A stretch of 40,541 nucleotides of DNA. Origin: an uncultured bacterium. Lineage in GTDB: Bacteria > Cyanobacteriota > Vampirovibrionia > Gastranaerophilales > Gastranaerophilaceae. The position numbers were made by a program, and so were the translations under genes. Every line of letters begins with the position of its first letter. The stretch's first letter is position 1. The notes beneath the pieces are model-generated. The model ran no database searches and was not told where the DNA came from. It saw only the letters and a list, made by a program, of their open reading frames with translations. The stretch lies in the NCBI GenBank assembly GCA_949296355.1, contig CASFPS010000017.1:1-40541 (forward strand), in the 5' to 3' direction. Below, one piece after another: positions 8,853-28,429 of this stretch.

Positions 8853-10238
8853 CTATTCCGCACAAACAACCCTGTTTCTGCCGCTTTCTTTTGCTTTGTA
8901 AAGCGCTTTGTCTGCCTGCGCAAACAATTCTTCGCCGCTTTCATCCTGCCTGAATTCCGCCAGACCCATGCTTATTGTGACATTTATATTTAAATTGTCA
9001 AGAGAAACTGTTGTTTCTTCGACGGCTTTTCTTAAACGCTCGCCCACGATTTTTGCCTCGTCAATATGTGTGTAAGGGAGAAGTACCGCAAACTCTTCCC
9101 CGCCGTATCTTGCAGGAATGTCAGATTCTCGAAGCTGCGCTTTAATAACAGATGCGACTGTTCTCAAAACTTCATCCCCGCTTGCGTGACCGTAGGTGTC
9201 GTTAACTTTTTTGAAGAAGTCAATATCTATCATCATTGCGCAAAGCGGGTTATTTTGACGTTTTGTGATTGCAATTTCCTGTTTAAGTCTTGTCTCAAAC
9301 TGACGTCTGTTATTGAGGTTTGTAAGCGCATCTAAAGTTGCGTACTGCAGAACTTTTGAATACGCATTTGCTCTGCTTATCGTGATTGCCGATTGTCTTG
9401 TAAGCTGCTCCAGATAACTGATATCACGCTTTGAAAGTTTATCCAGCGTGCTTCTTGCAACAATACATCCGGTAATCTCACCTTCAGAAATCAAAGGAAA
9501 CGCCCCGATTTTGTCATTGTTTGTAAGAATATATTCGGTTTCAGGCGTTAATTCCTTCAAAACTTCATAAATCCTCTCATCCTTGCACGCTTTAGGCCAA
9601 ACGAGCTTAAATTCGCCTTCCTGTTTTAGAAAAACATAAATCAAATGGTCTGAAATAAACCGGTCAAGCATTTCTCCGATTAGCGGAACAATATAATTAA
9701 GCTCGTACTGGGTTTCAATTATCTTTGCAATATTTTTCATTGAATCGTGAAAATCGACGTTAATTTTTGACTGTTCATTCAGTACAATATTCTGAAGCTT
9801 AAGAGAAATCTGGGCAGATAGAATTTTCATCAAAAATAAAAATTCCGTATTAACCGAAGTGTTATCTTCAAAATCGATTTCAATCAGCCCGAAATCCTGC
9901 CCTTCTTTTGCCGTCGGAATAAAAAGAGATTCCAGTTTGAAAGTTATATCCCCGATGTGTGCGGGCATTTTGTAAGCTCTGGAATTAATAATAAAATCTT
10001 CATTTTTAATATCACTAAATGCCCTGTAAACTCCTGAATCATCCGGAATAACGCTCCAGCCTTCCGCCGCATTTCTTATTGTGTTTGTAATATTGTCAAA
10101 AACATAGATATACAGGTTTTTAACCGCAACAATTTCCTGCAAAAACTGTTTAACTCCTTCCGCAAGCTCGTTTGCGTCTATCTGTTTTTCCAGAAGCTCT
10201 GAAATTTTTATTAATATTTGAAGATATTTATTTTCCAT
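8853..10238 (-). CDS. GAF-like/GGDEF diguanylate cyclase
   Basis: A 461-residue soluble protein. The first ~290 residues look like one or two GAF-like sensor modules (no membrane helices). A GGDEF domain follows at about 300-460. The active-site motif is GGEEF (379-383), preceded by RESD (370-373), an intact product-inhibition I-site, and by DIDFFKKVNDTYGH, the metal/nucleotide-binding segment. It is therefore expected to make c-di-GMP with feedback control. No EAL domain is attached. The ATG at 10238 is preferred over 10289, because the longer form would overlap the upstream TPR gene by about 30 bases; AGGGGG lies before the chosen start. The gene follows the TPR gene by about 19 bp. Confidence 0.9.
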   Translation of the reverse strand: MENKYLQILIKISELLEKQIDANELAEGVKQFLQEIVAVKNLYIYVFDNITNTIRNAAEGWSVIPDDSGVYRAFSDIKNEDFIINSRAYKMPAHIGDITFKLESLFIPTAKEGQDFGLIEIDFEDNTSVNTEFLFLMKILSAQISLKLQNIVLNEQSKINVDFHDSMKNIAKIIETQYELNYIVPLIGEMLDRFISDHLIYVFLKQEGEFKLVWPKACKDERIYEVLKELTPETEYILTNNDKIGAFPLISEGEITGCIVARSTLDKLSKRDISYLEQLTRQSAITISRANAYSKVLQYATLDALTNLNNRRQFETRLKQEIAITKRQNNPLCAMMIDIDFFKKVNDTYGHASGDEVLRTVASVIKAQLRESDIPARYGGEEFAVLLPYTHIDEAKIVGERLRKAVEETTVSLDNLNINVTISMGLAEFRQDESGEELFAQADKALYKAKESGRNRVVCAE

Positions 10239-21256: not shown

Positions 21257-21298
21257 CAGATTTGACGTTAAGCCGATGAATGACAATTGAATATGAGT

Positions 21299-21562
21299 GC
21301 GGAAGTAGCTCAGTTGCCCAAGCGAGGCTAATTTGAGCAACTGCACAAAGAAAGCGAAGTTGAGCCGAGCGTATCTGAGATATACTCTACCAACTGAGCG
21401 GTTGAAAGTTTAATAAGTTTGAATATGAGTGCGGAAGTAGCTCAGTTGCCCAAGCGAGGCTAATTTGAGCAGCTGCATAGGAAAAGCGAAGTTGAGCCGA
21501 GCGTATCTGAGATATACTCTACCAACTGAGCGGTTGAAAGTTTAATAAGTTTGAATATGAGT
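21299..21562 (+). repeat. Two 132-bp units, each a partial tRNA-Gly with an inverted D-arm
   Basis: Units 21299-21430 and 21431-21562 are nearly identical. Each starts with the first 18 bases of tRNA-Gly (GCGGAAGTAGCTCAGTTG), continues with about 65 bases of unrelated insert, then carries an 18-base inverted copy of the tRNA D-arm (21382-21399; 21514-21531), complementary to 21572-21589 of the real tRNA. It ends with the linker GAAAGTTTAATAAG and the leader TTGAATATGAGT. Within a unit CAGTTGC can pair with GCAACTG (in unit two GCAGCTG, still paired through G-U), or alternatively the inverted arm can pair with GCTCAGTTG. These partial copies cannot make functional tRNAs. Confidence 0.9.
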
Positions 21563-21635
21563 GCGGAAGTAGCTCAGTTGGTAGAGTATCTGCCTTCCAA
21601 GCAGACTGTCGCGAGTTCGAGTCTCGTCTTCCGCT
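21563..21635 (+). tRNA. tRNA-Gly (anticodon TCC)
   Basis: A 73-base cloverleaf: acceptor GCGGAAG/CTTCCGC, D-stem GCTC/GAGT, anticodon stem TCTGC/GCAGA around loop CTTCCAA (anticodon TCC, reads GGA/GGG), a five-base variable region and T-stem GCGAG/CTCGT with loop TTCGAGT. The discriminator is T and CCA is not encoded. It is immediately preceded by two partial copies of its own 5' end. Confidence 0.96.
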
Positions 21636-21669: not shown

Positions 21670-21696
21670 TGTTTTATTAATACAATAAGTAAAGTA

Positions 21697-21722
21697 GTAG
21701 TGTGGAGCTTGCCCCACACTAC
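21697..21722. repeat. GTAGTGTGGAGC palindrome, left copy (R6)
   Basis: GTAGTGTGG faces CCACACTAC around AGCTTGCC. It is a near-copy of the perfect palindrome at 22021-22046. The two flank the candidate toxin-antitoxin module. Confidence 0.75.
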
Positions 21723-21742
21723 TTAGCTTTTAGTGTTATTGC

Positions 21743-28160: not shown

Positions 28161-28188
28161 TTGATTTCTGTTATTGGCGTTTTATAAT
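28161..28188 (+). promoter_or_regulatory. Promoter of the tRNA-Pro locus
   Basis: TTGATT (28161-28166), 16 bp, TATAAT (28183-28188). The start point (about 28195) lies 15 bases before the partial tRNA copy at 28210, so the partial copy would be transcribed as part of the tRNA leader. Confidence 0.65.
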
Positions 28189-28209
28189 TAAATATATTGA
28201 ACAGTATAT

Positions 28210-28355
28210 CGGGATGTAGCAGGGTCTCCCGTTGACAAGGTGCCGGTGGCACGTTGGAAATGGGGCAGGCGAGTTGAGAGCGGAAGCTCGAGCGAGCCGT
28301 TTAGAAGATTGACCAAACTGCGCGTTCCGGAAAGTTTAACAATTGAATAGTATAT
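28210..28355 (+). repeat. 146-bp partial tRNA-Pro unit with an inverted D-arm
   Basis: It begins with the first 11 bases of tRNA-Pro (CGGGATGTAGC) and continues with about 90 bases of structured insert. The insert includes the hairpins GTGCC-GGT-GGCAC and GAGC-GGAA-GCTC. It then carries ACCAAACTGCGC (28312-28323), the exact reverse complement of the real tRNA D-arm (28365-28376), followed by GAAAGTTTAACAA and a leader copy TTGAATAGTATAT. The layout and the GAAAGTTTAA linker match the units upstream of tRNA-Gly, although the inserts differ. Confidence 0.85.
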
Positions 28356-28429
28356 CGGGATGTAGCGCAGTTTGGTAGCGCACCGTGTTCGGGTCGCGGG
28401 GGTCGCAAGTTCGAATCTTGTCATCCCGA
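28356..28429 (+). tRNA. tRNA-Pro (anticodon CGG)
   Basis: A 74-base cloverleaf: acceptor CGGGATG/CATCCCG, D-stem GCGC/GCGC, anticodon stem CCGTG/CGCGG around loop TTCGGGT (anticodon CGG, reads CCG), variable GGGTC, T-stem GCAAG/CTTGT with TTCGAAT. The discriminator is A and CCA is not encoded. The G-U in the anticodon stem is acceptable. Confidence 0.95.

Follow-up and report, generated by a model that had tools for sequence, protein, structure and literature searches.

Short structured units with copies of tRNA gene ends, and often an antisense copy of a tRNA arm, in Gastranaerophilales

Units upstream of two tRNA genes

The window, by which we mean the whole stretch of 40,541 nucleotides analyzed here, is contig 17 of a Gastranaerophilaceae genome (G000) of 2.09 Mb in 41 contigs, in which 40 tRNA matches were obtained and all 40 were screened. 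At the gathering threshold, two tRNAs are the sole Rfam matches in the window, and the genes for both, tRNA-Gly (TCC) and tRNA-Pro (CGG), are preceded by units containing sequence of the gene that follows. The features are listed below, with the basis of each assignment.

21287-21418, plus strand: first unit upstream of tRNA-Gly (TCC), antisense at 21382-21399 (repeat comparison)
21419-21550, plus strand: second unit upstream of tRNA-Gly (TCC), antisense at 21514-21531 (repeat comparison)
21563-21635, plus strand: intact tRNA-Gly (TCC), junction TTG18^G19-T-A (tRNA gene match)
28161-28188, plus strand: promoter-like TTGATT-16-TATAAT upstream of the Pro unit (consensus match alone)
28196-28220, plus strand: left copy, leader and tRNA-Pro positions 1-11, the tRNA part being 28210-28220 (direct repeat)
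28221-28266, plus strand: insert hairpin 1 (sequence reading and fold)
28268-28298, plus strand: insert hairpin 2, GGCGA..GAGCC type with a GGAA loop (sequence and fold)
28312-28323, plus strand: antisense ACCAAACTGCGC to tRNA-Pro positions 10-21 (12/12 complementary)
28324-28355, plus strand: linker and second leader (sequence)
28356-28429, plus strand: intact tRNA-Pro (CGG) (tRNA gene match)

The architecture that an earlier note had read at the tRNA-Pro locus was borne out: a copy of the tRNA 5' end is followed by an insert of its own, an exact complement of the D-arm and the intact tRNA. The segments 28196-28220 and 28342-28366 form a 25-nt direct repeat (24/25 identical, spacing 146 nt), and ACCAAACTGCGC is the exact complement of 28365-28376, that is, of tRNA-Pro positions 10-21. 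The commonest insert hairpin, found in units of different tRNAs, is ACTCTGCCGA-stem-GAGAGG, hereafter the core. This exact core is absent from the Pro insert of the window, which is of a second type; its GGCGA..GAGCC hairpin is common to the Leu-GAG unit and to Pro units of relatives. Hairpin 1 begins across from the junction C11^G12-C-A14 in the intact tRNA-Pro and is related to the type A core hairpin through its tip (GTGCCGGTGGCAC), which also occurs in cores of genome G104. As stated in the earlier note, TTGATT-16-TATAAT lies upstream of the partial tRNA-Pro copy, and judging from its position, transcription of this copy is plausible. Sites of this type number three in the 551 nt scanned, with 1.4 expected.

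The two Gly-TCC units are arranged in tandem, are 132 nt long each and share 96% identity. Each holds one antisense segment of 18 nt that complements tRNA-Gly positions 10-27, and the inverted segment thus begins at tRNA position 10 in both loci, as had been noted. The linker said to be common to them, GAAAGTTTAA, does precede Pro and Gly exactly, but these two alone among the 40 tRNAs; the general linker is AT-rich and reads roughly TTGAAAATTRAATA, as judged by eye from units of this genome and its relatives. Just past tRNA-Gly, at 21696-21723, lies a REP-like, GTAG-tagged palindrome, AGTAGTGTGGAGC/GCCCCACACTACT.

Units at many tRNAs and at both gene ends

The general layout of a unit comprises a leader, the tRNA 5' end, a folded insert and often an inverted D-arm copy, followed by a leader and the intact tRNA. 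An upstream copy of at least 11 nt of the own tRNA 5' end was found at 10 of the 40 tRNAs, against 18 of 1,494 mismatched tRNA/flank pairs, and an upstream complement of at least 11 nt to own positions 9-30 at 5/40 against 8/1494; these controls rule out a chance origin of the tRNA-matched copies and antisense. Upstream units precede Pro-CGG, Pro-TGG, Gly-TCC, Ala-TGC, Phe, Met, Asp, Leu-TAG, Leu-CAA and Leu-GAG, and the Lys-CTT unit is partial in this genome because of a contig end. Full antisense is present in the Ala, Gly and Pro units. That of Leu-GAG has one mismatch to the tRNA, yet pairs inside its unit, and the Leu-TAG unit has a direct copy of the 3' part of the D-arm and no antisense. 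The arrangement, whose confinement to two tRNAs would have counted against the reading of the earlier note, occurs at many tRNAs and in several species. Among relatives identified through TypA, those with a name are mostly Candidatus Gastranaerophilales. TypA rarely adjoins a tRNA in relatives (80 TypA-anchored loci), nor does it in the sister genome G370.

The units are outside Rfam. At E<=2, the matches of eight unit loci were to tRNA, to tmRNA and, below threshold, to unrelated families, and the units at 14 loci and in the window could not be identified as a T-box or another known Rfam RNA.

The relatives surveyed were represented by one assembly per species, and array lengths are lower bounds because many of these are fragmented metagenome assemblies. 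Targets of 137 distinct cores were sought by taking the sequence in front of the core, finding its repeat downstream on the same strand and identifying the RNA gene that contains this repeat. In this way 58 cores were assigned to a tRNA. All 45 that lie on the tRNA strand fall at tRNA positions 7-20 without exception, and the other 13, which are oriented against the tRNA and located at its 3' end, all fall at positions 41-66. The 79 cores without a resolved target include contig ends, tandem neighbors, the repeat of G104 described below and chance matches (L175, L202, L216). In the 3'-side loci inspected (L153, L163, L181), the flank that is repeated is the tRNA terminator, beyond which the unit lies. 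The duplicated flank varies in length, from 9 to at least 55 nt. This same architecture at both gene ends is the main reason for an explanation at the DNA level.

Other RNA genes and insert types were also encountered. By eye, tmRNA is a target in L181 (about 1510-1650), where the insert is of another type, and L218 (about 1286-1600) has two core units in tandem that apparently lie in the reverse complement of the 3' part of a 5S rRNA. Another insert type, GTCTTG..CGC..TTAAACG.., occurs at tRNA/tmRNA 3' ends (L016, L163, L171, L181, L195) and sometimes nests a core. In L181 (2000-2684), genes for a RelE/ParE-type toxin and a HigA-like antitoxin lie, cargo-like, between two 3'-side units near tRNA-Glu.

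The point of entry follows a junction rule. The core stands directly 5' of G-N-A in 28/28 distinct resolved targets, against 8% on average for G-N-A at neighboring offsets, and the fourth junction base is G in 16 of the 28. Both junctions of the window, C11^G-C-A in tRNA-Pro and G18^G-T-A in tRNA-Gly, obey it. The tRNA bases A14, G19 and A21 are conserved, and since G-N-A partly coincides with them, the 28 targets are not independent and correspond to some seven independent contexts.

The sequence following each core was then scored for its match to the complement of the arm it targets and, for comparison, to the complements of arms from other tRNAs. Among upstream units, the own arm exceeded at least 95% of other arms in 16/45 and all 60 shuffles in 16/45; the corresponding figures for downstream units were 11/13 and 12/13. 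Some 5'-side units lack any antisense. The proposal that the antisense follows its own tRNA consequently stands as a tendency beyond chance, with target-matched units in several species, and falls as a universal rule: antisense that tracks the target is common, not obligatory. It is most regular in the 3'-side units, where co-transcription with the tRNA cannot occur. Of the two options offered in the earlier note, an element that copies its target is supported by the target-matched copies and antisense at many tRNAs and in several species, whereas a D-arm antisense mechanism fails as a general explanation, because 3'-side units on the opposite strand have the same architecture and their antisense is more often arm-matched. 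It could at most be a by-product at one of the two gene ends.

The core hairpin, its folding and its variation

Comparing inserts for a common core, as had been suggested, revealed hairpins common to units of different tRNAs and species. The core was searched with the pattern CTCTGCCGAN{16,46}GAGAGG, using the reversed pattern as control. It is present in all 15 genomes of the genus and in 168 of 192 genomes of the order (164/170 in the family, 4/22 in the rest of the order), with 0 for the reversed control. In a phylum sample of 292 genomes, 15 genomes outside the order had core matches and 19 had control matches, and the 8 out-of-order inner sequences fetched all fail to form the stem; matches outside the order are at chance level. 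Among the matches listed for viral contigs, one of 112 distinct inner sequences was above the stem threshold of 0.8 and three reached at least 0.7, of which one (L382) was judged a real core, and on these listed matches a phage origin was rejected. The hairpin of L382, at about position 10090 on the minus strand, has no obvious tRNA neighbor.

Compensatory changes maintain the stem. In 80 distinct inner sequences with the hairpin, out of 91, stem pair 2 is paired in 69 and uses all four Watson-Crick types (C-G 28, G-C 19, A-T 12, T-A 9), whereas 500 shuffles gave a mean of 29 and a maximum of 40. Core stems contain 23 G-T and 7 A-C combinations. In G104, loci L236-L264 belong to a dispersed intergenic repeat of 250-350 nt in many copies, which starts near TGTCTGAGTGGGACC and ends with GTCAGTTGACTATATGAAA. 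The core hairpin is present or absent at two positions of this repeat, where it replaces GGA or GGAA hairpin loops, and six of its loci gave no Rfam match at E<=1.

Folding was compared with that of dinucleotide shuffles for 46 distinct units of the 58 (35 upstream, 11 downstream). On the strand reading into the gene, median z was -3.6 upstream and -4.8 downstream with RNA parameters, and -3.2 and -4.1 with DNA parameters. In upstream units the inward strand exceeds its shuffles by more than the other strand does, a preference of degree because the other strand also folds better than shuffles. The Pro unit of the window has an RNA fold z of -4.85 and a DNA fold z of -0.91. The hairpins that follow the core end in GNA triloops in 16/24 cases (112/1696 in control loci) and in GNRA tetraloops in 6/14 (45/1577 in control loci). 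GNRA loops are favored in RNA also. GNA/GNNA loops form extraordinarily stable DNA mini-hairpins, according to PMC4686876. In all five transcripts of unit plus tRNA folded with RNA parameters, the minimum-energy fold has the antisense bound to the real tRNA instead of within the unit, and in 4/5 the copied acceptor strand is also paired with the tRNA 3' strand. The joint fold is 8-15 kcal/mol better than unit and tRNA folded separately; under co-transcriptional folding, the unit would form first.

Presence and copy number of units differ between species. The sister genome G370, whose TypA third codon positions are 94% identical to those of this genome, has one Gly-TCC unit versus two here, and carries a Val unit and a 3'-side copy at Lys-TTT that are both absent here. 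It retains the Pro-TGG unit, with a changed upstream flank and a hairpin 2 loop of GCAA in place of the GTGA found here; the comparison excludes the Pro-CGG leader, at which the G370 contig ends. Flanks of the sister pair at Val, Lys-TTT, Asp and Pro-TGG are replaced or rearranged, the difference at Gly is a tandem-copy change, and no clean empty site for an insertion was seen in this pair. Within the genus, 8 of 14 Pro-TGG loci have a unit and 6 have none (by eye). At Lys-CTT, the exact core occurs within 170 nt in 14 of 24 loci (L432 repeats L406), and the remaining loci carry a different type of unit or no unit. Across eight genomes, identity is 91-99% for the Lys-CTT insert, 53-76% for its linker and 52-61% for TypA third positions. 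Arrival of a cassette together with its linker ought to leave both conserved, so the insert may be under selection; repeated arrival is another possible reason. Unit divergence and species divergence gave r 0.05 (28 pairs, saturated).

Possible origins and significance

The units are real, widespread in one bacterial order, and undescribed in the open-access text searched, which included parts of PMC8266576, PMC3733652, PMC4686876 and PMC2800124. We lean towards placing the Pro unit among small structured insertion cassettes of about 85-150 nt, a family confined to Gastranaerophilales whose members take up a copy of their target's end and of one of its arms. Such a cassette would enter a tRNA gene (also tmRNA and 5S rRNA) from either end, on the inward-reading strand, and would stop in an early arm (D-arm, T-arm, sometimes the anticodon side), directly 5' of G-N-A. 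It would bring or duplicate the flank and end of the gene, so that an intact gene is left at the inner side, and an arm copy in inverted orientation would usually close it into a hairpin, which is why the antisense matches the neighboring tRNA. Cassettes may be mobile and move as a folded single strand, an enzyme, for which a RAYT transposase is one candidate, may choose G-N-A, and any effect on tRNA folding would be secondary. The variable length of the flank duplication, unlike a fixed target duplication, speaks against the cassette reading. The same holds for the sister pair, which showed no clean empty site, for the Lys-CTT insert conserved without its linker, for the DNA fold of the window's Pro unit, for a strand preference that is one of degree, for G-N-A targets that are not independent and for the 79 cores without a resolved target. 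A more specific version, which we put forward tentatively, is that of target-copying mobile hairpins that recognize, as folded single strand, a G-N-A in an arm of a stable RNA gene, copy the gene end and the arm complement into themselves, and re-target the same gene from either side to build arrays.

Known systems resemble the units in part. As in tRNA-integrating islands, the gene end is duplicated and displaced and the tRNA stays intact, but the units contain a folded core, occur at 5' and 3' ends, form arrays and, at about 100 nt, hold no gene, an integrase included. Rickettsia palindromic elements are likewise palindromic inserts in genes, in-frame in proteins; we know of no target-derived antisense in them, which sets the units apart. 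Integron attC is a site folded from a single strand and recombined by IntI, whose stem recreates a duplex target; the units would resemble it in their folded single strand, and no integron integrase was linked to them. Mitochondrial hairpin-forming and double-hairpin elements are also small, potentially mobile hairpins, and the passages of PMC2800124 examined do not mention copying of a target arm. With REP/REPIN sequences and their RAYT, the units share short length, folding, high copy number and strand-specific hairpins; GTAG at the D-loop junction and a RAYT in some of these genomes may be further likenesses. They differ in that REP/REPIN repeats are independent of the target, whereas units hold a copy and an inverted copy of the end of the target gene itself, matching the neighboring gene; moreover, they are mostly confined to ends of stable RNA genes, their junction is G-N-A, and RAYT is not found in every core-rich genome.

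A PF01797 (Y1) profile search of 18 genomes returned 10 matches in 8 genomes, including 5 of 9 core-rich genomes. Two of these proteins are RAYTs by NCBIfam, one of them from this genome (NF047646, E 1e-42), encoded about 0.4 kb from tRNA-Gly-CCC and beside a 3'-side unit. In L268 (1357-1893) and L269 (1477-2013), a RAYT gene adjoins the 3' end of a tRNA and is neighbored by palindromes, GTTGGGCAGGTATGCCCAAC for example. It is conceivable, if doubtful, that RAYT (TnpA_REP, a Y1 HUH enzyme), which acts on folded, GTAG-tagged single-stranded DNA, moves the units and that these form a divergent REP/REPIN family. This would fit the RAYT adjoining a 3'-side unit here, the RAYT of G104, which has repeat copies on both sides (upstream with the core, downstream without), and the Y1 loci, 6/10 of which have a tRNA within 1.5 kb, with Y1 always at its 3' side. 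TnpA_REP needs GTAG and cleaves single-stranded REP at CT (PMC8266576), to which the GTAG of the D-loop junction and the start of the core, A-CT-CTGCC, can be compared. Yet four of nine core-rich genomes are without a Y1 match and G061 has Y1 without cores, the RAYT of this genome is flanked by another palindrome (GTTGGGCAGGTATGCCCAAC), GTAG lies on the 3' side and other targets read GGAA, GGAT or GCAG, and the 3'-side islands may be mere permissive sites.

The cassette reading has further competitors. The 5'-side units could be leader RNA switches, with the antisense alternating between closure of the unit and capture of the D-arm and so controlling maturation of its own tRNA. The promoter-like site upstream of the Pro unit, the RNA z of this unit, the pairing of antisense with the real tRNA in all five transcripts with its energy gain, and the Lys-CTT insert conserved over saturated flanks are consistent with it; we consider it unlikely given the 13 of 58 units at tRNA 3' ends on the opposite strand (arm-matched in 11/13), clearly own-specific antisense in just 16 of 45 5'-side units, and the many congeners without a unit at the same tRNA, and the antisense:D-arm energy is trivial given a full complement. 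Integration into tRNA genes typically leaves displaced 3' ends with terminators, and this, together with the RelE/ParE-HigA pair between 3'-side units in L181, is what remnants of ordinary tRNA-targeting integrative elements, with displaced gene ends kept as attachment sites, would explain. Such an origin is very unlikely for tandem units of about 100 nt with a folded core in common that also occur at 5' ends downstream of promoters, and no unit-linked integrase was found (the 7 PF00589 matches in this genome are a genome-wide count). Replication template switching, in which a growing strand runs into the tRNA gene, turns back within an arm, copies that arm in inverted form and resumes at the flank, so that a partial copy plus antisense is left, accommodates fold-backs ending at various points (D-arm, anticodon stem), tandem copy changes and the symmetry at both ends. 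It does not predict a conserved core across tRNAs and species, G-N-A in 28/28 targets or conservation of the insert, and appears highly improbable.

If the cassette reading is true, most genomes of one order would harbor undescribed structured elements at essential RNA genes. The units would then offer a test of how miniature hairpins multiply while sparing their targets, and of whether folded single-stranded tRNA genes serve as recombination substrates. They may also add long structured leaders to pre-tRNAs, a burden for maturation.
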